Shown: one piece after another, positions 32,189 to 44,663 of the stretch
Numbering within the stretch: position 1 is the first letter of the stretch
Layout of the letters: every line of letters starts with the position of its first letter
DNA from: Skermanella pratensis
GTDB lineage: Bacteria > Pseudomonadota > Alphaproteobacteria > Azospirillales > Azospirillaceae
Direction of reading: 5' to 3'
NCBI RefSeq assembly: GCF_008843145.1
Contig: NZ_CP030265.1
Span: 4,022,501-4,086,500 of the forward strand
DNA length: 64,000 bases
Notes under the pieces: model-generated
The model's input: only the letters and a program-made list of their open reading frames with translations
What the model was told of the DNA's origin: nothing
The model's database searches: none
Position numbers and translations under genes: made by a program

Positions 32189-33289
32189 ATGGCCAGGGTG
32201 GAAACCTTCTACGACGTGATCCGGCGGCAGGGGATCAGCCGCCGCAGCTTCCTCAAGTTCTGCTCGCTGACCGCGGCTTCCCTAGGACTGGCGCCTGCCT
32301 TCGGGCCGCGCATCGCCCACGCGATGGAGACCAAGCCCCGCATCCCGGTGCTGTGGCTGCACGGACTGGAATGCACCTGCTGCTCGGAGAGCTTCATCCG
32401 ATCCGCCCACCCGCTGGTCAAGGACGTCGTCCTGTCGATGATCAGCCTGGATTACGACGACACCATCATGGCCGCCGCCGGCCACCAGGCGGAGGCGATC
32501 CTCGACGAGATCCGGCACGAGTACAAGGGCCGCTACATCGCGGCGGTGGAGGGCAACCCGCCTCTCAACGAAGACGGCATGTACTGCATCATCGGCGGCC
32601 GGCCGTTCGTCGAGCAGCTCCGCGAGGTCTGCTCGGACGCCATGGCCGTGATCTCCTGGGGCTCCTGCGCGTCCTGGGGCTGCGTCCAGGCGGCCAAGCC
32701 CAACCCGACCCGAGCCACCCCGGTCCACGAGGTTATCACCGACAAGCCGATCATCAAGGTGCCAGGCTGCCCGCCGATCGCCGAGGTGATGACCGGCGTG
32801 GTGACCTACATGCTGACCTTCGACCGCATTCCCGAGCTGGACCGCCAGGGCCGGCCCAAGATGTTCTACAGCCAGCGCATCCACGACAAGTGCTACCGCC
32901 GGCCCCATTTCGACGCCGGCCAGTTCGTCGAGCAGTGGGACGACGAGCAGGCCCAGAAGGGCTATTGCCTCTACAAGATGGGCTGCAAGGGCCCGACCAC
33001 CTACAACGCCTGTTCGACCACCCGGTGGAACGCCGGCGTTTCCTTCCCGATCCAGTCCGGTCATGGCTGCATCGGCTGTTCCGAGGACGGTTTCTGGGAC
33101 AACGGCTCGTTCTACGACCGCCTCACCAACATCAAGCAGTTCGGCATCGAGGCGAACGCCGACCAGGTCGGCGGCACCGTCGCGGGCGTGATCGGCGCCG
33201 GCATCGCGGCCCACGCCGCGGTCAGCGCCGTCAAGCGCGCCCGCATGAAGTCCGGCGAGACCCAAGCCCCCGCCACCCCGCACGACTGA
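32189..33289 (+). CDS. hupS: [NiFe]-hydrogenase small subunit, oxygen-tolerant (group 1d type)
   Basis: The 366-residue electron-transfer subunit carries a Tat signal (SRRSFLKF at residues 17-24, cleavage after AHA45). Counting from the mature N-terminus, the proximal cluster cysteines are C17, C19, C20, C115, C120 and C149, the same numbering as E. coli Hyd-1. C19 and C120 are the two extra cysteines of oxygen-tolerant enzymes with a [4Fe-3S] cluster. Further iron-sulfur ligands follow ([44 protein letters not shown]). A C-terminal membrane anchor (about 330-350) docks to HupC. AAGGA precedes the ATG at 32189. Confidence 0.97.
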
Positions 33290-33361: not shown

Positions 33362-35155
33362 ATGGCAACCGTTTCGACGCCGAACGGATTCTCCCTGGAC
33401 AATACCGGCCGCCGGGTGGTGGTCGATCCCGTGACGCGGATCGAGGGCCACATGCGCGTCGAGGTCAACCTCGACGGCGACAACGTGATCCGCAACGCGG
33501 TTTCCACCGGCACCATGTGGCGCGGGCTGGAGGTCATCCTGAAGGGCCGTGATCCGCGCGACGCCTGGGCCTTCACCGAACGGATCTGCGGCGTCTGCAC
33601 CGGCACCCACGCGCTGACCTCGGTCCGCGCGGTCGAGGACGCGCTGGACATCAAGATCCCCGAGAACGCGAACACCATCCGCAACATCATGCAGCTCACG
33701 CTGCAGGTCCACGACCACCTGGTCCATTTCTACCATCTGCACGCGCTCGACTGGGTCGACATCGTCTCCGGCCTGAAGGCCGACCCCAAGGCCACGTCGG
33801 AGCTGGCCCAGAGCATCAGCTCGTGGGGCAAGTCGTCGCCCGGCTATTTCCGCGACATCCAGGCGAGGCTGCGCAAGTTCGTCGAGAGCGGCCAGCTCGG
33901 CCCGTTCAAGAACGCCTACTGGGGTCACGCCGCCTACAAGCTGCCGCCCGAAGCCAACCTGATGGCGACCGCCCACTACCTGGAGGCGCTCGACTTCCAG
34001 AAGGAGATCGTGAAGATCCACACGGTCTATGGCGGCAAGAACCCCCACCCCAACTGGCTGGTCGGCGGCGTGCCCTGCCCGATCAACATCGACGGGACCG
34101 GAGGCGTCGGTGCCATCAACATGGAACGGCTCAACCTGGTATCGTCGATCATCGACCAGACGATCGAGTTCGTGAACCAGGTCTATATCCCCGACCTGAT
34201 CGCCATCGCCGGCTTCTACAAGGACTGGCTGTACGGCGGCGGCCTGGCGAGCACGTCGCTCATGTCCTACGGCGACATCCCGGAGCGGGCGAACGACTAT
34301 TCCGACAAGAGCCTGATGCTGCCGCGCGGCGTGATCCTCAACGGCAAGCTGGACGAGATCCACGAGATCGACCTGAGGGCGCCCGACCAGGTGCAGGAGT
34401 TCGTGAACCATTCCTGGTACAAGTACGCCGACGAGTCCAAGGGCCTCCACCCCTGGGACGGCGTGACCGAGCCCAACTACGTGCTCGGCCCCAACGCCAA
34501 GGGCACCAAGACCCGGATCGAGGCGGTGGACGAGGGTGCCAAGTACTCCTGGATCAAGTCGCCGCGCTGGAAGGGCCACGCCGTCGAGGTCGGCCCGCTG
34601 GCCCGCTACGTCATCGGCTACGCCCAGAACAAGCCGGAGTTCAAGGAGCCGGTCGACCAGCTCCTGAAGGCCCTGGACGTGCCGGTCACCGCCCTGTTCT
34701 CCACCCTGGGCCGCACCGCGGCGCGCGGGCTGGAATGCGGCTGGGCGGCGGAGAAGCTGCGCCACTTCCAGGACAAGCTGGTCCGCACCATCAAGGCCGG
34801 CGACGAGACCACGGCCAACACCGCCAAGTGGGACCCGTCGAGCTGGCCGACGTCGGCCAAGGGCGTCGGCTTCACCGAGGCGCCGCGCGGCGCGCTCGGT
34901 CACTGGATCCGGATCGAGAACACCAAGATCGCCAATTACCAGGCGGTCGTCCCCACCACCTGGAACGGCAGCCCGCGCGACACCAAGGGCAACATCGGGG
35001 CGTTCGAGGCCTCGCTGCTCGACACCCCCATGGCGGATCCGGAGCAGCCGCTGGAGATCCTGCGCACCCTGCACAGCTTCGACCCCTGCCTCGCCTGCTC
35101 GACCCACGTGATCGCGCCGGACGGCAGGGAACTCACCGAAGTCACCGTGCGCTGA
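33362..35155 (+). CDS. hupL: [NiFe]-hydrogenase large subunit
   Basis: The 597-residue catalytic subunit binds the NiFe(CN)2CO centre. The N-terminal ligands are in [10 protein letters not shown] (C76, C79, H83) and the C-terminal ligands in DPCLACSTH (C576, C579, H582). The 15-residue tail after H582 is the peptide removed by HupD once nickel is inserted. With HupS it oxidises H2 on the periplasmic side, exported as a folded dimer by the Tat signal of HupS. It begins 72 bases after hupS. Confidence 0.98.
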
Positions 35156-35171: not shown

Positions 35172-35930
35172 ATGACCGCGCATGTCGACAAGACCCCGGC
35201 AGCATCCTCCGCCGACGACGAGATCGCCGATCTCGCGACCGCGCGGAACCATCTCCAGGTCCGCCAGACCGCCATCTACGTCTACGAGTGGCCGGTCCGC
35301 CTGTGGCACTGGGTGAACGCCGCCGCGATCCTGGTGCTCGCCGTCACCGGCTACCTGATCGGCTCGCCGCCGGGCTCCCAGCCGGGAGAGGCGAGCGACG
35401 CCTACCTGATGGGCTACATCCGCTTCGCCCACTTCGCCGCCGGCTTCGTGATGGCGATCGGCATGGCGGGGCGGATCTACTGGGCGTTCGTCGGCAATGT
35501 CCATGCCCGCCAGATGTTCGTCCTGCCGTTCTGGTCGGGCAAGTTCTGGCGGGAAGTGCTGGTCGAGGCGCAGTGGTACGCCTTCATGCGCGACTACCCG
35601 AAGAAGTATATCGGCCACAACCCGCTGGCCCAGCTCGCCATGGTGACGATCTACAGCGTCGGCAGCATCTTCATGATCGTCACCGGCTTCGCGCTCTACT
35701 CCGAGGGGGCGGGTCAGGATAGCTGGTTCGACACGCTGTTCGGCTGGGTGATCCCGCTGGCCGGCAACTCGCAGAACCTGCACACGATCCATCATCTCGG
35801 CATGTGGGTGATCGTCACCTTCGTGATCATCCACGTCTATGCCGCGATCCGCGAGGACATCATGAGCCGGCAGAGCATGATCAGCACCATGATCAGCGGC
35901 TGGCGGATGTTCAAGGACGACGGCAAGTGA
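35172..35930 (+). CDS. hupC: Hydrogenase-linked b-type cytochrome
   Basis: The 252-residue membrane cytochrome passes electrons from HupS to quinone. Four membrane helices are visible, with heme-ligand histidines in VRLWHWVNAAAIL, RFAHFAAGF and NLHTIHHLGMWVIVTFVIIHVYAAI. AGCGGAGGAT lies before the ATG, 16 bases after hupL. Its stop overlaps the GTG of hupD. Confidence 0.95.
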   Translation: MTAHVDKTPAASSADDEIADLATARNHLQVRQTAIYVYEWPVRLWHWVNAAAILVLAVTGYLIGSPPGSQPGEASDAYLMGYIRFAHFAAGFVMAIGMAGRIYWAFVGNVHARQMFVLPFWSGKFWREVLVEAQWYAFMRDYPKKYIGHNPLAQLAMVTIYSVGSIFMIVTGFALYSEGAGQDSWFDTLFGWVIPLAGNSQNLHTIHHLGMWVIVTFVIIHVYAAIREDIMSRQSMISTMISGWRMFKDDGK

Positions 35931-36538
35931 GCATCGAATCCGGTCGTCCCGTCCTCGTCCTGGGCATCGGCAACATCCTCTGGGCCGACGAGGGCTTTGG
36001 CGTGCGGTGCGTGGAGGAACTGCACCGCCGCTGGAGTTTTCCCGAAGACGTCCTGGTGATGGACGGCGGCACCCAGGGCCTTTACCTCGTCCACTACGTC
36101 AAGGCGGCCCGCCGGGTGATCGTGTTCGACGCGATCGACTATGGCGAGGAGCCGGGAACCTTGAAGCTGGTGCGCGGCGACGAGGTGCCCAAGTTCACGG
36201 GCGCCAAGAAGATGAGCCTGCACCAGACCGGCTTCCAGGACGTGCTGAGCGCCGCCGAACTGCTGGGCGGCACCCTTGACGACATCCTGCTGATCGGCGT
36301 CCAGGCCGTCGAACTGGAAGACTACGGCGGGAGCCTGACCCCGCCGGTCCGGGCCCGGGTCGAGCCGGCCCTGGCCATCGCCGTCGAGCAGCTGGCGTGC
36401 TGGGGCTATCCGGCGGCGCCGCGAACCGACGCTCCCGATGATCTGCTTCACGGCGGCATCGGTCTCGCCGATTACGAAGCCGGCCGCCCCTCCGCCGAAG
36501 ACGCCTGCCGCGTCGGCGACTCCCGCTTCTTCGCCTGA
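35927..36538 (+). CDS. hupD: Hydrogenase maturation endopeptidase
   Basis: The 203-residue protease cleaves the C-terminal tail of HupL. Family residues that bind nickel in E. coli HybD are present as E22 (ILWADEGFGVR), D68 (VIVFDAIDYG) and H99 (KKMSLHQTGFQDVL). I chose GTG at 35927, which gives the family N-terminus RPVLVLGIGNILW and a GTGA overlap with hupC. The C-terminus is about 35 residues longer than HybD, a feature common in rhizobial HupD. Confidence 0.93.
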   Translation: MSIESGRPVLVLGIGNILWADEGFGVRCVEELHRRWSFPEDVLVMDGGTQGLYLVHYVKAARRVIVFDAIDYGEEPGTLKLVRGDEVPKFTGAKKMSLHQTGFQDVLSAAELLGGTLDDILLIGVQAVELEDYGGSLTPPVRARVEPALAIAVEQLACWGYPAAPRTDAPDDLLHGGIGLADYEAGRPSAEDACRVGDSRFFA

Positions 36539-36554
36539 TCGGAGCCGAACGGCC

Positions 36555-36878
36555 ATGTGCATCGGCATCCCCATGCAAGTCCGCTCAGAAAATGGACTGA
36601 CCGCTCTGTGTGCCGGCCGCGGCGAGGAACGCCGCGTCAGCCTGCTGCTGACCGGCGAACTGCCGGTCGGCGCCTGGGTCATGGTCCATGTGGACACCGC
36701 GATCCGCACCCTGGACGAAGCCGAGGTCCCGCTGATCAACGGCGCGCTCGACGCGCTGGAGGCGGCCGGCCGGGGCGATCCCTTCGAGCACCTGTTCGCC
36801 GACCTGATCGGCCGCGACCCCCAGCTTCCCGAACATCTCCGCGAGCAGCAGCCCGCCCCTTCACGAGGAAAAGCCTGA
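36555..36878 (+). CDS. hupF: HypC-like hydrogenase chaperone
   Basis: The 107-residue protein begins MCIGIPMQV, the HypC/HupF signature whose Cys2 contacts the large subunit and the iron centre. In rhizobia HupF protects HupL when oxygen is present. It differs from hypC (42219) in its extended, Glu/Pro-rich C-terminus. The ATG at 36555 is fixed by the signature; the frame upstream of it overlaps hupD. It ends with a TGATG overlap into hupG. Confidence 0.93.
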   Translation: MCIGIPMQVRSENGLTALCAGRGEERRVSLLLTGELPVGAWVMVHVDTAIRTLDEAEVPLINGALDALEAAGRGDPFEHLFADLIGRDPQLPEHLREQQPAPSRGKA

Positions 36879-37258
36879 TGCCCGCAACGGTCATCGAACG
36901 CCTTATCGCGATCGAGAACTGCCCGGTGATCACTGGGGACACGGTCGATCGTTTCCTGGACGGCAGCGGAATGGCGATCCTCTTCTTCACCGGCGATCCG
37001 CGCCAGAGGCCGGAAAGCAACGACGTCGCCGTCGTCCTGCGCGAGCTCAACACGGTATTCCCCGGCCGCCTGCGCATCGGCATCGTCGACCAGGCGGCCG
37101 AGGCCGCGCTCAAGCCCCGTTTCGGCGTGCTGGTCGTGCCCACCCTCGTCTACATGCGGCGGGGCGAGTTCGTCGGCCTGATCCCCCGGATCCAGGACTG
37201 GCAGAGCTACGTCGAGAAGACGCGCGCCTTCCTCGGAGCCGCGCCGCCAAGCCCCTGA
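36878..37258 (+). CDS. hupG: HyaE/HupG-type hydrogenase accessory protein
   Basis: The 126-residue thioredoxin-fold protein has RFGVLVVPTLVYMRRGEFVGLIPRIQDW, which matches the cis-Pro strand of thioredoxin without a CxxC active site. HyaE/HupG proteins bind the Tat signal or precursor of the small subunit. It overlaps hupF by one base. Confidence 0.9.
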   Translation: MPATVIERLIAIENCPVITGDTVDRFLDGSGMAILFFTGDPRQRPESNDVAVVLRELNTVFPGRLRIGIVDQAAEAALKPRFGVLVVPTLVYMRRGEFVGLIPRIQDWQSYVEKTRAFLGAAPPSP

Positions 37259-37322
37259 ACATGCTGCCGACTCCATCGCCTGCCCCCGCCGCCTCCTGCC
37301 CCCAGAAAAGGGACCGACCACG

Positions 37323-38189
37323 ATGCGCCACCCGATGAAATGGGAGAATGAAGAGCAGCCGACCGGCGTATTCCTGGGCGGTCCGGAAGCCGAGTCTCTG
37401 GACCTGATGCGGATGCCGGCCGCCGTGCGGCGTCTCGACCGGCTGTCGCTGCCCGGAACGGCGCCGGGGCTGGCCGATGCCGCGCGCATCCTCATGGCGG
37501 TCCGCGCGGCCCTCGACGGCTTCACGGTCGACTCTCCGCCGGCGCTGTTCCCGCTCTCCGGCCTGGACCAGGCGGCGGTGGCGCTGCTCGACGACGCCCT
37601 GGGCGAGGGCGAGGTCGGCATCGTCGTTTCGGGCGCCAGCGAGTACCAGATCCAGGAATCGGTGCTGCCCGGCGTCTGGCGGGTCAAGACCTTCGACATC
37701 GCCGGCGGACCCGCCGGCAACCTGGCCGGCGACCATATCGAGGTGGCGGACGTCCCCGGCGTCGTGCGCGCCGCAGCCCAGGGCGGCACCCGCGCGCATC
37801 TCGACATCGGGGAGCCGCCGGAAGGCTGCATGAACGTCATGCCGGTGCTGGCCGAGCTTAGGGCGCGCACGGCGGCCTACGTCAAGGGCGACCGCAACCA
37901 TGTCATCAGCTTCACCCTGTTCCCCATGAACGAGACGGACATGGCGTTCCTCAAGCGGACGCTCGGGCTGGGGCCGGTCCAGGCGGTCTCGCGCGGATAC
38001 GGCACCTGCCGCGTCACCCTGACCGGCCAGCGCCATGTCTGGAGCGTCCAGTACCTCAACGCCATGGACACCGTGATCCTGGACACGATGGAGGTCGGCG
38101 ACGTCCCGGTCGCCCTGTCGGCGGCGGACGAGGATTTCCAGGACAGCGCCGAACGGCTGGGCGAAATCCTGGAGGCCTATTTCCAATGA
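37323..38189 (+). CDS. hupH: HyaF/HupH-type hydrogenase accessory protein
   Basis: The 288-residue protein of the HyaF/HupH family is needed for small-subunit maturation in oxygen-respiring hydrogenase producers. Family blocks seen are LPGVWRVKTFDIAGGPAGNLAGDHIEVADVP (split across about residues 110-140), NVMPVLAELRARTAAY and TGQRHVWSVQYLNAMDTVILDTMEVGDVP. A 64-base gap precedes it; its stop overlaps the next gene by 4 bases. Confidence 0.93.
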   Translation: MRHPMKWENEEQPTGVFLGGPEAESLDLMRMPAAVRRLDRLSLPGTAPGLADAARILMAVRAALDGFTVDSPPALFPLSGLDQAAVALLDDALGEGEVGIVVSGASEYQIQESVLPGVWRVKTFDIAGGPAGNLAGDHIEVADVPGVVRAAAQGGTRAHLDIGEPPEGCMNVMPVLAELRARTAAYVKGDRNHVISFTLFPMNETDMAFLKRTLGLGPVQAVSRGYGTCRVTLTGQRHVWSVQYLNAMDTVILDTMEVGDVPVALSAADEDFQDSAERLGEILEAYFQ

Positions 38190-38953
38190 CCGCGGCGTCC
38201 CCCGCGGCCCAGAACCTGTTCGAGGGCTCGTTCCTGGGCGACGCCACGCGGATCGCTCCGGACGCGCGGCTCGAATGCGGCATCTGCTGGACCCCCTACG
38301 ACCCCGCCGAAGGCGACCCGGTCTGGCAGATCCCGCCGGGAACCCCCTTCGCGGCCCTGCCCGAGGACTGGCGCTGCCCGACCTGCGACGCGGAGAAGCA
38401 CAAGTTCATGGTGCTGGACGCGCCGGCCCCAGCCCCGGCCCCGGCGGAGCCGCCGCCCGCCGACCCGTCCGGCAAGCTGGCCGAGGCGTACCGCGGGATC
38501 GCGCGGAAGGTGATGTCCGACCTGCCGCTCTACAATCCCCGGCTGGCGGTCGAGGCGGTCGGCTTCCGGCGATATGGCGACAGCTGGCTCGGCATCATGG
38601 TGACGCCCTGGTTCATGAACGCCGTCCTGGTGCCCGGGGTGCCGGGAGCCTGGAACGGCACAAGGGACGGGGTCAAGTCGACCCATGCCCTGCCGTCCGG
38701 CGACTACGAGTTCGTCGCCGGCCATCTCGACGGCGTCGGGACGATCCTGAACTGCTCGCTCTTCTCCCCCATGTTCGAGTTCCAGGAGCAGGCCGTCGCC
38801 CGCCAGACCGCCGAGGCCGCGCTCGCGGCCCTGCTCGAACCCGAGTCTGGTGCCGAGGCATCCCCGCCATCTCCCGCCGCGCCCGCGGCGCCGGCACCCG
38901 CCCCGGTCGAGGTGAGCCGCCGTCACCTGCTGCGCGGCAGCTTCGGAGGATGA
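38186..38953 (+). CDS. hupJ: Rubredoxin-HybE fusion (HupI-HupJ)
   Basis: The 255-residue protein joins two hup products. Residues about 15-75 are a rubredoxin (CGICWTPYDPAEGDPVWQIPPGT..CPTCDAEKH, the two CxxC pairs), equivalent to HupI. After an Ala/Pro linker (about 78-96), residues 100-215 are HupJ/HybE (SDLPLYNPRLAVEAVGFRRYGD, VTPWFMNAVLVPG), a chaperone of the small or large subunit. The C-terminus is again Ala/Pro-rich. Rhizobium keeps these as two genes; fused forms are known in some alphaproteobacteria. It overlaps hupH by 4 bases. Confidence 0.9.
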   Translation: MTAASPAAQNLFEGSFLGDATRIAPDARLECGICWTPYDPAEGDPVWQIPPGTPFAALPEDWRCPTCDAEKHKFMVLDAPAPAPAPAEPPPADPSGKLAEAYRGIARKVMSDLPLYNPRLAVEAVGFRRYGDSWLGIMVTPWFMNAVLVPGVPGAWNGTRDGVKSTHALPSGDYEFVAGHLDGVGTILNCSLFSPMFEFQEQAVARQTAEAALAALLEPESGAEASPPSPAAPAAPAPAPVEVSRRHLLRGSFGG

Positions 38954-38957
38954 AGCC

Positions 38958-40142
38958 ATGAACGCGCGCGCCGGCATCGAAGGTACGCTCTCGTTCCAGA
39001 TCCTGGTCATCGACTCCACGGTGGCCGACGTGCGCCTGAAATCGTCGCGCGCAACCGGCATCGACCGCATGTTGGCGGGGCGCCCGGTGGCCGACGCCCT
39101 GTCGCTGGTCCCCATGCTGTTCAGCCTGTGCGGAACCGCCCAGGGCGTCGCCGCCGCCCGGGCCTGCGAGGCGGCGGCCGGCATCGTCCCGGCGGGCGCC
39201 CAGCAGGCCGCGCGCGAGCTTCTGATCCTGGGCGAAATGGTCGCCAGCCACGCCTGGCAACTGGCTATCGAGTGGCCGCGCCTGCTGGAGGAGGCGCCGG
39301 ACCCCGGCACCCTGCTCGGGATCCGCCGGGCCGTGGCGGCGCTTGCCGGAGCGCTCTATCCCGCGCGTGACTGGACCCGGCCCGGCGGCGGCGCGCTCAA
39401 ACCCGACGCCGTGGTCCTGGACGATGCGCTGGAGCATATCGCCGGCGCGGTCGTGACGCTGGTCGGCGCCGGCTTCGCGGAGATCCGCGACAGCGACGAT
39501 CTTGCCCGCTGGAGCCGCCGGACCGGCACGACGGCGGCCCGGCTGATCGACCGCGTCATGGCGGACGACATGGCGGGCTTCGGGCGCAGCGGGGTAGCCA
39601 AACTGCCCGGCCTGCCGGACCGCTGGTTCGCCGACCGGCTCTCCGCCGATCCGGACTTCGCCACGGCCCCGGACCTGGACGGCGGGCCGGCGGAGACCGG
39701 TGCCCTGGGCCGGGTCGCCGGCGCGCCGCTGATGGTCGCCTTGACCGCTTGCTTCGGCAACGGCCTGCTGCCGCGTTTCGCGGCACGGCTGGTCGACCTG
39801 GCGGGCCTGCCGGCCCGGATGCGCGACACCGCAAAGCTGCTGGAAGCCGCCCGGCCGGCCCCGCCGGACGCGGCCCAGGGAGCCTCAGGCTCCGGCGCGG
39901 GCTCGGCGGAGACCGCGCGCGGCAGGCTCGCCCACTGGGTCGCGCTGAACCGGGGAGCGGTGACCGCCTACCGGTCGGTCGCTCCCAACGAGTGGAATTT
40001 CCACCCGCGCGGCGCCTTCGTGCGCGGGCTCGTGGGGCTGCCGGCCGACGACGGCCTGCGCCGGAGGGTCGATCTGCTGATCGCCGCGCTGGACCCCTGC
40101 GTTCCCTGCTCCGTGATGATGGAGGAACGCGCCGGTGCATGA
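38958..40142 (+). CDS. hupK: HupK, scaffold-like large-subunit homologue
   Basis: The 394-residue protein is a distant relative of HupL, found only in hydrogenase loci of aerobic type. The C-terminus ends HPRGAFVRGLVGL..ALDPCVPCSVMMEE, keeping the DPCxxC of the large subunit but not the final His or the processed tail; the N-terminal CxxC pair is absent. It is thought to act as a scaffold for iron-centre delivery. It starts 4 bases after hupJ and overlaps hypA by 8 bases. Confidence 0.9.
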   Translation: MNARAGIEGTLSFQILVIDSTVADVRLKSSRATGIDRMLAGRPVADALSLVPMLFSLCGTAQGVAAARACEAAAGIVPAGAQQAARELLILGEMVASHAWQLAIEWPRLLEEAPDPGTLLGIRRAVAALAGALYPARDWTRPGGGALKPDAVVLDDALEHIAGAVVTLVGAGFAEIRDSDDLARWSRRTGTTAARLIDRVMADDMAGFGRSGVAKLPGLPDRWFADRLSADPDFATAPDLDGGPAETGALGRVAGAPLMVALTACFGNGLLPRFAARLVDLAGLPARMRDTAKLLEAARPAPPDAAQGASGSGAGSAETARGRLAHWVALNRGAVTAYRSVAPNEWNFHPRGAFVRGLVGLPADDGLRRRVDLLIAALDPCVPCSVMMEERAGA

Positions 40143-40476
40143 AATGGCGCTCTGCCAGGGTATCCTCGACATCATCCTCGACCGGGCGGCGGAGGAAGGT
40201 TTCAGCCGCGTCGCGATGGTCCGTCTCCGCGTCGGGGCGCTCTCCCACGTCGATCCGCGCGCCCTGGAATTCGGGTTCGACGTGGTGGCCCGGGGATCCC
40301 TGGCCGAAGGCGCCGAGCTGAGGATCGACCGGCCGGCGGGACAGGCCTTCTGCGTGGCCTGCTCAAGGACGGTGGCTCTGGCGGCCCGGGGAGATCCCTG
40401 TCCGGCCTGCGGCAGCCACCAGTTGATGGTGGTCGGCGGCGACGAACTGCGTGTCGAAGAACTGGAGGTTTCGTGA
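40135..40476 (+). CDS. hypA: Hydrogenase nickel incorporation protein HypA
   Basis: The 113-residue nickel chaperone starts with MHEMALCQ; the N-terminal amine, H2 and E3 bind nickel. The zinc site is the CVAC/CPAC pair at about residues 74-94. The start is the GTG at 40135, which alone supplies the MHE signature. It normally hands nickel to HypB, whose gene should follow but is reduced to a fragment here. Confidence 0.95.
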   Translation: MHEMALCQGILDIILDRAAEEGFSRVAMVRLRVGALSHVDPRALEFGFDVVARGSLAEGAELRIDRPAGQAFCVACSRTVALAARGDPCPACGSHQLMVVGGDELRVEELEVS

Positions 40477-42209
40477 TGTGCACGGTCTGCGGCTGCGGCC
40501 CCGGGGAGACCCGGATCGACGGACTCGATCCCGGGACCGGCCCGGAGCATGACCACGAGCATGTATCCTCCAATGGGACGGTGTTCCGTCACAGCCGCCT
40601 CGGCGGCTTCCATCTCGCCTGCGACGCCGGCACCCCCGGCACGGTCACCCGCCTCCGGGCGCTCAAGCAGCGCAACGGCAAGCCTTTCGCGATGATGGTG
40701 GCGAGCCTGGCCGAGGCACGGCGAATCGCCGAGATCGGCCCCGCCGAAGCGTCGCTCCTGACCGGCCCCGAGCGGCCGGTGGTGCTGGTCCGCCCGCGGT
40801 CCGGCACGGCCGCTCCCCGGGTCGCTCCCGATCTCGCCCCGGATCTGGCCTGGCTGGGCCTGATGCTGCCCTACACGCCCCTGCATTACCTGCTGTTCCA
40901 CGAGGCGGCGGGCCGCCCGGCGGGAACCGCCTGGCTCGACGGGCCGCAAGGTTTCGCGCTGGTCATGACCAGCGCCAACCCCGGCGGAGAGCCCCTGGTG
41001 ACCGGCAACGCGGAGGCGGCGGAACGGCTCGGCGACATCGCGGACTGCATCGTCACCCACAACCGGGACATCGTCACCCGCAGCGACGACAGCGTCGCGC
41101 GGGTGGTCGGCGGAGCGCCGATGCTGATCCGCCGCGCCCGCGGCTATGTCCCCGCGGGCATCCCGCTCGGCCGGCCGGTGCCCCAGGTCCTGGCCCTGGG
41201 CGGCCACCTGAAGAACACCGTCTGCGTGACCCGCGGGACGCAGGCCTTCCTCTCCCAGCACCTGGGCGACCTGGAGAACGCCGCGACGCTGCGCTTCTTC
41301 GAGGAAACGGTCGCCCACTTGCTGGACATACTGGAGGTCGATCCGGTCGCGGTTGCCCACGATCTGCATCCAGATTTCCTCTCGACACGCCACGCGGAGT
41401 CGCTCGGGCTTCCCGGCATTCCGGTCCAGCACCACCATGCCCACGTGGCGGCGGTCGCCGCAGAGTATGGCCGTTCCGGGCCGATCGTCGGCCTGGCCCT
41501 CGACGGCTTCGGGCTGGGCGAGGACGGCGACAGCCGGGGAGGAGAATTGCTGCGGGTGGACGGCGCCCGGTGCGACCGGCTGGGGCACTTCGCCCCCCTG
41601 GCCCAGCCCGGCGGCGACGCGGCGGCACGCCAGCCCTGGCGCATGGCGGCCGCAGCCCTGCACCGGCTCGGCCGGACGGACGAGATCGCGCACCGCTTCG
41701 CACGCTTCGGCAACCCTGCCTTGCTGGTCCAGATGCTCGACCAGGAAATCAACTGCCCGCCGACGACCTCGTGCGGGCGCTGGTTCGACGCGGCTTGCGG
41801 CCTGCTGGGCGTGCGCAACGTGTCGGGATTCGAGGGCGAGGCCGCGATGGTCCTGGAATCCCTGGTCACGCACCCCGCCGTGCTGCCCGGCGGCTGGACC
41901 ACGGATGGCGGCATCCTCGACCTGTTGCCGCTGCTCGACGCGCTCCGCGGACTGCCGCCCGCGGCAGGCGCCGATCTGTTCCACGGCACCCTGGCCGCCG
42001 CCCTGGTCGACTGGGCTCTTCCCTCCGTGGAAGGCGCCGAGATCGTCCTGTCCGGCGGCTGCGTCATGAACGCGGTGCTGACCGAAGGCCTGATCGAGGG
42101 TTTCGCCCGGCACGGCGTCAAGGTCCTGGTGCCGCGTCGGGTACCCGCCAACGACGGCGGCCTCAGCCTTGGCCAGGCCTGGGTCGCCGCGCACCACCTG
42201 ATCCACTAG
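40476..42209 (+). CDS. hypF: HypB N-terminus fused in frame to truncated HypF
   Basis: This 577-residue frame begins as HypB: MCTVCGCG is the nickel-binding CxxCGC start, followed by a short His stretch (HDHEH, residues 25-29). From about residue 42 (RLGGFHLACDAG) it reads as HypF to the end: the second part of the YrdC-like domain (GKPFAMMV, SDDSVARVV), then the Kae1-like domain with metal-binding VQHHHAH and the closing VPANDGGLSLGQAW. The HypB GTPase domain and the HypF acylphosphatase, both zinc fingers and the start of YrdC are missing (HypF is normally about 750 residues). The frame is open, so a hybrid protein may be made, but neither normal activity is expected. An assembly error is the main alternative. 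Confidence 0.88.
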   Translation: MCTVCGCGPGETRIDGLDPGTGPEHDHEHVSSNGTVFRHSRLGGFHLACDAGTPGTVTRLRALKQRNGKPFAMMVASLAEARRIAEIGPAEASLLTGPERPVVLVRPRSGTAAPRVAPDLAPDLAWLGLMLPYTPLHYLLFHEAAGRPAGTAWLDGPQGFALVMTSANPGGEPLVTGNAEAAERLGDIADCIVTHNRDIVTRSDDSVARVVGGAPMLIRRARGYVPAGIPLGRPVPQVLALGGHLKNTVCVTRGTQAFLSQHLGDLENAATLRFFEETVAHLLDILEVDPVAVAHDLHPDFLSTRHAESLGLPGIPVQHHHAHVAAVAAEYGRSGPIVGLALDGFGLGEDGDSRGGELLRVDGARCDRLGHFAPLAQPGGDAAARQPWRMAAAALHRLGRTDEIAHRFARFGNPALLVQMLDQEINCPPTTSCGRWFDAACGLLGVRNVSGFEGEAAMVLESLVTHPAVLPGGWTTDGGILDLLPLLDALRGLPPAAGADLFHGTLAAALVDWALPSVEGAEIVLSGGCVMNAVLTEGLIEGFARHGVKVLVPRRVPANDGGLSLGQAWVAAHHLIH

Positions 42210-42218
42210 GAAACCGCC

Positions 42219-42464
42219 ATGTGCCTCGCCTTGCCCGCCCGGATCGTCGAGATCCACAGTGACGACAGCGCCACGGTGTCGCTGGGAGGCGTGCGCAAGC
42301 AGGTCTCCACCGCGCTGATCGAGGAACCGGCCGTGGGCGATTATGTGATCGTCCATGTCGGCTACGCGCTGTCCAGGCTCGATCCGGCGGAAGCCGAACG
42401 GACCCTGGCGCTCCTCGCCGCCCTGGACCGGTCCGCACCCGAGCAGGAGGATGCCGCCGCATGA
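42219..42464 (+). CDS. hypC: Hydrogenase assembly chaperone HypC
   Basis: The 81-residue protein begins MCLALPARIVEI, the HypC signature; Cys2 binds the Fe(CN)2CO precursor with HypD. VGDYVIVHVGYALSRLDPAEAE is the conserved second half. It lies 9 bases after the hypF part and overlaps hypD by 4 bases. Confidence 0.96.
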   Translation: MCLALPARIVEIHSDDSATVSLGGVRKQVSTALIEEPAVGDYVIVHVGYALSRLDPAEAERTLALLAALDRSAPEQEDAAA

Positions 42465-44035
42465 AATACGTGGACGAGTACCGCGACGGCCCCCTGGCGT
42501 CCCGGGTCGCCGCCGCCATCGCGGCGGAGACCGATCCTGGACGGCACTATGCCCTGATGGAGTTCTGCGGCGGCCACACCCACGCGATCTGCCGCTACGG
42601 CATCGAGGATCTGCTGCCGTCCAACGTCGGCATGGTCCATGGTCCCGGATGTCCGGTCTGCGTGCTGCCGATCGGCCGGCTCGACATGGCGATCGAGCTG
42701 GCGATGCGGCCGGAGGTGATCCTGTGCACCTACGGCGACATGATGCGGGTACCCGGCCGCGACCGCACCAGCCTGATGAAGGCGAAGGCCGGGGGTGCGG
42801 ATATCCGCATGGTCTACGGCAGCGGCGACGCGCTGCGCGTCGCCCGGGAGAATCCCGGCCGCGAGGTCGTCTTCTTCGCGATCGGGTTCGAGACCACGGC
42901 CCCGACCACCGCCGTGGCCCTGGTCCAGGCGGCGGCGCTGGATCTCCGCAACTTCAGCGTCTTCGCCAACCATGTGCTGACGCCGTCCGCAATCCAGGCG
43001 ATCCTGGACAGCCCGGAGGTGACCGCGACCGGAACCGTGCGGGTCGACGGCTTCATCGGGCCGGGGCATGTCAGCACCATCATCGGCTCGGCCCCCTACG
43101 AGCGGTTCGCCCGCGACTATGGCCGCCCCATCGTGGTGTCCGGGTTCGAGCCGCTCGACATCATGCAGTCGATCCTGATGCTGGTGCGCCAGCTCAACGA
43201 GGGGCGCCGCGACGTCGAGAACCAGTTCAGCCGCGCGGTATCGCGGGACGGCAACGCCAAGGCCCAGGCGATGGTCGAGCGGGTGTTCGAGCTGCGCGAC
43301 AGCTTCGAATGGCGCGGCCTCGGGACGATTCCGGACAGCGCGCTGCAGATCCGCGAGGAGTTCGCGGACTGGGACGCGGAACGGCGCTGGCAGCTCCGCT
43401 ACGTCCCCGTCGCCGACAGCAAGGCATGCTCCTGCGCCCAGATCCTGCGCGGAGCCAAGAAGCCGCTGGACTGCACGATCTTCGGCACGGCCTGTACCCC
43501 GGAGAATCCCATGGGGTCCTGCATGGTCTCGCCGGAAGGCTCCTGCGCGGCGTATTATCTCTACGGTCGCTGGCGCGACATCCCCAACGGGCCAAAACGG
43601 GTTGAAATCCATGATGCAGGACGACCGCCGGCCTTTCACCCGCAAGCTGGACCTGAAGAACGGCCAAGTCGACATGAGCCACGGCAGCGGCGGGAAGGCC
43701 ATGGCCCAGCTGGTCGAGGAGATGTTCGGCGCGGCCTTCGACAATCCGTTGCTGGCCCGCCGCAACGACCAGGCGGTCTTCGACCCGCCGCCCGGCCGGC
43801 TGGCGGTCACCACCGACAGCTATGTGGTTTCTCCGCTGTTCTTTCCGGGCGGCGACATCGGCTCGCTGGCGGTTCACGGCACGGTCAACGACCTTGCGAT
43901 GGCCGGCGCCAGGCCGCTCTACCTGACGGCGGGGTTCATCATCGAGGAAGGCTTCGCACTCCGCGATCTCGCCCGGATCGTCGCCTCGATGGCGGCTGCT
44001 GCGGCCGGAGCCGGCGTCGCGATCGTGACCGGTGA
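42461..44035 (+). CDS. hypD: Hydrogenase formation protein HypD, with aberrant C-terminal extension
   Basis: HypD builds the Fe(CN)2CO group with HypC and HypE. The N-terminal cysteine motifs (MEFCGGHTHAICRYG, GPGCPVC), GFETTAPTTA and the iron-sulfur motif CSCAQILRGAKKPLDC..FGTACTPENPMGSCMVSPEGSCAAYY are intact through about residue 370. The family ends here, but this frame has no stop until 44035, giving 524 residues whose last ~145 are arginine-rich out-of-frame translation of hypE. A TGA in another frame at 43603-43605 would give a 380-residue protein if one base were added in the preceding G run. A frameshift at the end of hypD, real or from sequencing, is likely. Confidence 0.85.
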   Translation: MKYVDEYRDGPLASRVAAAIAAETDPGRHYALMEFCGGHTHAICRYGIEDLLPSNVGMVHGPGCPVCVLPIGRLDMAIELAMRPEVILCTYGDMMRVPGRDRTSLMKAKAGGADIRMVYGSGDALRVARENPGREVVFFAIGFETTAPTTAVALVQAAALDLRNFSVFANHVLTPSAIQAILDSPEVTATGTVRVDGFIGPGHVSTIIGSAPYERFARDYGRPIVVSGFEPLDIMQSILMLVRQLNEGRRDVENQFSRAVSRDGNAKAQAMVERVFELRDSFEWRGLGTIPDSALQIREEFADWDAERRWQLRYVPVADSKACSCAQILRGAKKPLDCTIFGTACTPENPMGSCMVSPEGSCAAYYLYGRWRDIPNGPKRVEIHDAGRPPAFHPQAGPEERPSRHEPRQRREGHGPAGRGDVRRGLRQSVAGPPQRPGGLRPAARPAGGHHRQLCGFSAVLSGRRHRLAGGSRHGQRPCDGRRQAALPDGGVHHRGRLRTPRSRPDRRLDGGCCGRSRRRDRDR

Positions 44036-44663
44036 CACCAAGGTGGTCGAGCGCGGCAAGGGTGACGGCGTCTTCATCAACACGACGGGCATCGGCGTGG
44101 TGCCGCCAGGCGTGGCTCCGTCCGGCGACAGGGCACGGCCCGGCGACGCCGTGCTGGTCAGCGGCTTCGTCGGGGATCACGGCGTGGCGATCATGTCCAC
44201 ACGCGAGAATCTCAGTTTCGAGACGACCATCGCCTCCGACAGCGCGGCGCTTCACGGCCTGGTGGCGGCCATGGTCGGCGCGGTCCCGGACATCCACGTG
44301 CTGCGCGACCCGACGCGCGGCGGCCTGGCGACCACGCTCAACGAGATCGCGCGGCAATCCGGGGTCGGCATGCTGCTCGACGAGCGGGCGATCCCGGTCC
44401 GCGGGGAGGTCGCCGCCGCCTGCGAGTTGCTGGGCCTCGATCCCCTCTATGTGGCGAACGAGGGCAAGCTGGTCGCAATCTGCGCGCCCGGGGATGCCGC
44501 CCGGCTGCTGGAGGCGATGCGCGGCCATCCGCTGGGCATGGACGCCGCCGTCATCGGAACGGTGATTGACGACGACCACCGCTTCGTGCAACTGCGGACA
44601 ACGTTCGGCGGAAAGCGCATCGTGGACTGGCTGGCCGGTGAGCAGTTGCCCCGGATCTGTTGA
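43611..44663 (+). CDS. hypE: Hydrogenase expression/formation protein HypE
   Basis: The 350-residue protein dehydrates the carbamoyl group on its C-terminal cysteine to cyanide. [25 protein letters not shown] opens the AIRS-like ATP domain, [32 protein letters not shown] is the next block, and the protein ends PRIC with the carbamoyl-accepting Cys. The start could be 43611, 43614 or the TTG at 43602. It overlaps the extended hypD frame by 425 bases. Confidence 0.95.
   Translation: [350 protein letters not shown]

Follow-up and report, generated by a model that had tools for sequence, protein, structure and literature searches.

An acylphosphatase domain of HypF is reported to make carbamate, which is shielded within the protein by an internal tunnel (PMC12134894, PMC6022934). 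Some proteins of the family have neither this domain nor the zinc fingers. Cupriavidus necator HypF1 (394 aa) and other HypF proteins that consist of the Kae1-like domain only are encoded in hyp operons; HypF1 is missing the YrdC-like domain as well, and its gene sits between hypC and an adjoining full-length hypB. HypF1 has been suggested to become functional under more aerobic conditions (PMC9100943), whereas it was inactive, or seemingly so, in E. coli under anaerobic conditions, with production of the protein being unclear in one study (PMC9100943, PMC5350229). Class III O-carbamoyltransferases, such as TobZ and GdmN, combine YrdC-like and Kae1-like domains in the absence of an acylphosphatase and are reported to adenylate carbamoyl phosphate with ATP (PMC9633730). 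For HypB, the N-terminal CxxCGC motif is described as not being universal (PMC7055735), and hypB defects can reportedly be overcome by low-millimolar nickel (PMC12134894). Clusters containing hupSL have been described in three other Skermanella species (genus paper).

Here we examine a hup-hyp operon of Skermanella pratensis W17, a meadow-soil isolate with a genome of 5.87 Mbp (PMC11767975). On the assembled sequence, there is a single in-frame deletion in this operon, and the result is a fusion of HypB to HypF. The hybrid resembles the HypF proteins of S. rosea and S. mucosa, with 91-92% identity across YrdC and Kae1 and the same place in the operon, but the S. rosea protein has an acylphosphatase, two zinc fingers and a YrdC-like domain that matches its profile from position 3, whereas the hybrid has no acylphosphatase, no fingers and no first YrdC strand and scores below the TIGR00143 cut-off. 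Like HypF1 and other Kae1-only proteins, it lies in a hyp operon and lacks the acylphosphatase and zinc fingers; unlike them, it keeps YrdC and has lost HypB. It shares its pair of domains with the class III enzymes but has YrdC before Kae1, while those enzymes have the reversed order (PMC6022934), act on a different acceptor and form a separate family. Compared with HypB (TIGR00073), the hybrid retains the CxxCGC nickel motif and has no GTPase domain at all. The features of the operon are as follows, numbered within the window, which is the whole 64,000-nucleotide stretch of DNA that was analysed.

32189..33289 (+): hupS, hydrogenase small subunit with a Tat signal (TIGR00391, 553.7 bits; TIGR01409)
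33362..35155 (+): hupL, hydrogenase large subunit; no other match to PF00374 in the genome is full-length
35172..40142 (+): hupC and accessory genes (hupD, F, G, H, J and K-like), open frames named by order and likeness
40135..40476 (+): hypA, complete, 113 aa (PF01155, 1-112 of 112; TIGR00100, 100.2 bits, cut-off 88.1)
40476..40596 (+): HypB-derived part of the hybrid, residues 1-40 and one further base, including the MCTVCGCG motif and the beginning of a His-rich stretch
40596..40597: junction between the HypB- and HypF-derived parts, one base into codon 41
40597..42209 (+): HypF-derived part of the hybrid, comprising the complete Kae1-like domain and all but the start of the YrdC-like domain
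42219..42464 (+): hypC, open frame by direct reading, which as a query matches hypC of other loci
42461..44035 (+): hypD frame, 524 aa (PF01924 over residues 13-369, TIGR00075 over residues 2-371)
43602..44663 (+): hypE, complete (TIGR02124, 466.1 bits, 1-332 of 332)

The hybrid frame and its junction

The hybrid frame runs on the forward strand from an ATG at 40476, which is overlapped by the hypA stop, to a stop codon ending at 42209 and encodes 577 aa, as found both in the list of open reading frames and by direct reading; the list opens the frame at a GTG at 40473, giving 578 aa. Residues 1-40 of HypB are joined to HypF from position 211 of the TIGR00143 model. In both S. rosea (L034) and S. 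mucosa (L035), hypA, hypB and hypF occur in the same order, with hypB encoding 281 and 287 aa, respectively, and a hypF frame of 750 aa; both genes are also present in a third relative (L037). The two sister loci align to the window at 93-94% as far as 40594 and then, beginning at 40597, at 91-92%, and the window lacks 1365 bases relative to S. rosea and 1383 relative to S. mucosa, both of which are multiples of three. As hypB and hypF of the sisters occupy one reading frame, a deletion that joins the two leaves the frame open whenever its length is a multiple of three. The initial annotation had proposed an in-frame hypB-hypF hybrid at 40476-42209 that was produced by one deletion with ends near 40560-40600, and had given hypA-hypB-hypF-hypC as the order in related loci. 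The frame, the domains and the sister alignment agree with the first of these proposals, the junction (40596|40597) is in frame relative to both sisters and the gene order is that of the sister loci. Its estimates of length were less exact, as HypB contributes 40 residues rather than about 41 and the HypF portion begins at about residue 212 (of some 750) rather than near residue 225.

The domain content of the hybrid is that expected from this junction. The Pfam matches are to PF01300 (YrdC; 14-177 of 178), PF17788 (HypF_C; 4-99 of 99) and PF22521 (HypF_C_2; 1-241 of 241), the last two of which make up the Kae1-like carbamoyltransferase domain. A Pfam scan of the hybrid found no acylphosphatase (PF00708), zf-HYPF (PF07503) or GTPase (PF02492) domain; the first two are present in sister HypF and PF02492 is present in sister HypB. 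Thus, the predicted loss of the HypB GTPase and of the HypF acylphosphatase and zinc fingers was upheld, while the loss of part of YrdC, which had also been predicted, is real but confined to about the first 13 profile positions. Family models matched both parts of the hybrid below their cut-offs: TIGR00143 (hypF) matched over positions 211-740 of 741 with 441 bits (cut-off 466.1), and the HypB prefix model NF053667 matched residues 1-30 with 25.1 bits (cut-off 30). Identity to sister HypB is 87% over residues 1-38 and identity to sister HypF is 91-92% over residues 34-577; hence, judged by sequence, the likeness of the hybrid to HypB and HypF is not due to chance.

That the deletion is absent from the strain in nature, and reflects an assembly error or a change that arose in the sequenced cultured clone, is unlikely. 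When compared with the sister loci, the deletion ends have no flush shared bases, and no repeat of at least 14 nt is present at either end in either sister locus. The nearest direct pair, of 16 nt, is upstream of the two ends in S. rosea, at distances of 184-199 and 72-87 bases, respectively, with a like pair in S. mucosa; as this pair cannot yield the observed junction, we rejected assembly collapse across a repeat. The deletion also keeps the frame, and 14 of the 15 frames compared with both sisters are free of uncompensated frame changes over 12,855 coding bases. The exception is hypD, in which a C run near 43581 is one base shorter than in either sister, such that the frame overruns the start of hypE (the sister proteins have 381 aa), although the HypD domain is whole in Pfam and NCBIfam searches. 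This may be a second lesion of the operon, or else an error of sequencing. Loss of one base in a C run is a typical error of long reads, and the occurrence of such a change near the deletion is a point in favour of an artefact. A further such point is that no plasmid is part of the S. pratensis assembly, while three close relatives have 4-6 (PMC11767975), and the deposit may be incomplete.

Conserved residues and the predicted fold

Conservation was assessed in 80 relatives, for which 90 columns were at least 95% conserved. The hybrid departs at only 2 of these 90 columns, residues 38 and 41, both of which are at the junction. The segment that precedes the GG pair in relatives consists of G (77/78), A (77/79), K or R (77/79) and G (77/79); in the hybrid only the first Gly remains and the other three are Arg, Ser and Arg, with Ser replacing the conserved Lys/Arg between residues 38 and 41. 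Elsewhere the HypF part departs at none of 66 columns that are invariant in the 33 relatives aligned for the structural model, as counted from the relatives alone. Hence, the YrdC-like domain, while matched over 14-177 of its 178 profile positions, has had its first strand replaced and has lost the conserved A, K/R and G, changes that would be expected to harm a carbamoyl-adenylation domain.

An AlphaFold2 model built with 34 sequences had a mean pLDDT of 89.4, with residues 1-29 below 50. In this model a strand at residues 37-41, composed mostly of HypB-derived residues, stands in place of the first YrdC strand. The best PDB match was the HypF structure 3vti (TM 0.90 over the query), and the nine best matches were all HypF structures. 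However, a model that is fed with family sequences leans towards the family fold, and we therefore give more weight to the lost residues than to the model. A more ambitious reading is that the fusion is a new and still selected maturase, in which a HypB nickel-binding leader is carried on a YrdC-Kae1 carbamoyltransferase, HypB-derived residues rebuild the YrdC strand, the cyanide precursor is made without an acylphosphatase of its own and the cell loads nickel without the HypB GTPase. We consider this to be very unlikely.

Search for further copies in the genome and the age of the deletion

The S. pratensis genome is a single contig of 5,869,433 bases with a completeness given as 99.83%. Profile searches of this genome detected one match to HypF_C, no zf-HYPF and no HypB above the cut-off; the best TIGR00073 match reached 70.5 bits, where the cut-off is 121.2. 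Matches at this level also occur in other Skermanella genomes, and each of the four examined has one HypB above the cut-off. The searches with PF00374 gave one full match, to hupL of this operon, and two short ones. A second set of hyp genes elsewhere in the genome was rejected, as these searches gave no HypB above the cut-off, no second HypF_C and no zf-HYPF, and the suggestion of the initial annotation that other hyp genes might mature HupSL thus gained no support. A stand-alone acylphosphatase (a 103-aa frame) is present at C1:4373695-4373940 and likewise in all five Skermanella genomes examined. HypX gave no match in any of these five genomes at 1e-10 in a search run without a positive control.

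Intact hypB and hypF genes might instead be located on a replicon that is missing from the assembly and provide for maturation in trans. The size of the single contig, 5.87 Mb, and the plasmid content of three close relatives, totalling 1.43-1.66 Mb (PMC11767975), would allow for such a replicon; the chromosomes of S. rosea M1 and S. mucosa 8-14-6 are given as 6,098,631 and 6,407,183 bases in length, respectively (PMC11767975). However, the S. rosea and S. mucosa assemblies, plasmids included, each encode a single full HypF and a single HypB that exceeds the cut-off, both chromosomal and at this locus, so that a plasmid copy is not expected. No plasmid copy of hypB or hypF was seen in these sister assemblies, and searches of plasmids found only more distant hyp genes, which left the picture unchanged. 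Given also the stated completeness of the genome, we regard maturation from a missing replicon as most improbable.

Selection on the locus was assessed from changes unique to each lineage, pooled over 13 hup/hyp genes with hypC left out. The window branch had 106.5 nonsynonymous (N) and 291.5 synonymous (S) changes, a ratio of 0.365, as compared to 131 and 377 (0.347) for the two sisters together (p=0.82). For hypA, hypD, hypE and the HypF part, the ratios were 0.331 for the window and 0.233 for the sisters (p=0.18). In the counts as a whole, the last few hypD codons, which lie past the frame change, raise the nonsynonymous number for the window slightly. Relaxed selection on the window branch was therefore not detectable for these 13 genes relative to the two sisters, in a test that has little power to detect a very recent event. 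Hence, the deletion looks recent on these counts. Long decay of the locus, against which the initial annotation had argued from the open frame, is not supported, and its proposal of recent inactivation is the best fit. Unrelaxed N/S ratios also fit a protein that is still in use.

Our preferred reading, held with moderate confidence, is that this is a recent loss-of-function allele that leaves a maturation-defective hydrogenase. We reach this view because the sister species keep the full genes, no other HypB or HypF was found in the assembled genome, conserved residues are lost at the junction and hypD carries a further change. One recent in-frame deletion would have removed the HypB GTPase, the HypF acylphosphatase and zinc fingers and the start of YrdC, and fused the remainder. 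Without HypB, nickel would not be delivered to HupL at ordinary nickel levels. The hybrid, which has neither the acylphosphatase nor the internal tunnel for carbamate and has lost the A-x-K-G segment, would make little or no carbamoyl-adenylate, such that HypE would receive no cyanide precursor. HupL would then remain in its apo form without being processed, and the uptake hydrogenase would show no activity. An otherwise complete hydrogenase is thus probably no longer assembled normally. Several observations count against loss of function, namely, the open frame, the absence of departures at the 66 invariant columns, the frequent occurrence of a shortened HypF (in some cases even without YrdC) as the sole HypF_C protein, the nickel bypass of hypB, the stand-alone acylphosphatase and the confident model.

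The locus is a natural experiment on two questions. One is whether HypF can do without its acylphosphatase and zinc fingers provided that it retains YrdC and Kae1; the other is whether maturation of an uptake NiFe hydrogenase is possible in the absence of HypB. Should the allele prove dead, the hyp genes ought to be examined wherever genome papers deduce hydrogen oxidation solely from hupSL; should it prove alive, fewer maturation proteins suffice than has been assumed.

Shortened HypF and loss of HypB in other genomes

With the hybrid as the query, 27 of 385 genomes of the class matched at 1e-30; the sole match beginning at residue 1 was the window's own and the next began at residue 28. Among the 80 nearest loci, which are the best-listed matches in named genomes and may not include the window's own genome, 72 have a frame of at least 700 aa and an acylphosphatase motif, while the remaining eight lie at contig ends (five), are frame-broken copies (two) or have a variant motif (one). 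The HypB-HypF joint was found in none of the other 26 matching class genomes and in none of the 80 nearest loci listed. Among the matches listed for literature on hypB-hypF fusions and natural hyp deletions, as far as these sources could be consulted, we found no account of such a hybrid.

Shortened forms of HypF are, however, common in Pseudomonadota. HypF_C was detected, always as one match, in 97 of 398 genomes; in 33 of these 97 the open frame is shorter than 640 aa, a length that may have been cut by a contig end. We inspected 16 short loci, 12 from these 33 frames and 4 from the class-genome search, and most encode Kae1-only proteins in hyp clusters. Loss of the acylphosphatase and zinc fingers is thus no proof, on its own, of lost function, and the loss of HypB is the odder part of the hybrid. 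In six of the 16 loci (frames of 545-586 aa), a HycI-type protease part is joined to the Kae1 half. One such fusion (L196, 3859-5484, reverse strand) was confirmed with Pfam as a HycI/HupD-type protease and the Kae1 half of HypF, and lies beside hypC, hypD and hypE; the same fusion was recognised by eye in L195, L197, L198, L200 and L201, giving two families in all. The protease fusion is like the hybrid in that part of another maturation protein is carried on the C-terminal half of HypF, but has a different partner and occurs in several genomes, and matches to HypA and HypB adjoin it in L196. Other candidate precedents were dropped: the annotated record for R. leguminosarum HypF is of 2280 bases and 759 aa, the apparent acylphosphatase-less HypF proteins of L049 and L071 are frame-broken copies, and the HypF match of L165 (G157) begins at a contig start.

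A HypB match is present in the fetched stretch for 12 of the 16 short loci (split over two frames in L161 and truncated in L199, where the stretch ends); the other four are L159, whose genome has HypB on another contig, L195, L197 and L201. Eight of the 27 class genomes with HypF at 1e-30 have no HypB at this threshold, and the seven other than S. pratensis have no PF00374 match at 1e-30 either, a threshold that loses control genomes for PF00374 (2/14 as against 5/14 at the default). These seven alphaproteobacterial genomes (G118, G124, G126, G128, G157, G259 and G357) have no strong match to a large subunit, which is the sense in which they have no hydrogenase, and G157 and G259 are fragmented. 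Of the 27 genomes, only that of S. pratensis was seen to combine a strong match to the large subunit with an absence of HypB. Hence, loss of HypB beside a hydrogenase appears, from these searches, to be rarer than a shortened HypF.

The frequency of short HypF proteins bears on whether the hybrid works as a reduced HypF, with nickel entering HupL without HypB when plentiful, so that the hydrogenase is conditional and not dead. The hybrid might adenylate carbamoyl phosphate directly, as class III enzymes do with YrdC-like and Kae1-like domains (PMC9633730), or be fed by the stand-alone acylphosphatase. This reading is in keeping with the 33 short frames in 97 genomes and the prevalence of Kae1-only and protease-Kae1 proteins in hyp clusters, and with the aerobic function suggested for the 394-aa HypF1 (PMC9100943) and nickel rescue of hypB mutants (PMC12134894). 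The pLDDT of the model and its match to 3vti, and the unrelaxed N/S ratio, point in the same direction. Nevertheless, the conserved A, K/R and G are lost at the junction, the joint is absent from the other 26 class genomes and the 80 nearest loci listed, and HypF1 itself was inactive or seemingly inactive in E. coli anaerobically (PMC9100943, PMC5350229). We therefore judge a working hybrid to be unlikely, if still worth weighing, and prefer loss of function.

Damaged maturation genes were also observed in a second alphaproteobacterial hup-hyp locus, that of G391, a single contig of 8.0 Mb (L161, 6763-19000). In this locus hypB is split over two frames, and an in-frame joint in HypF connects the acylphosphatase to the end of YrdC, which is followed by Kae1.
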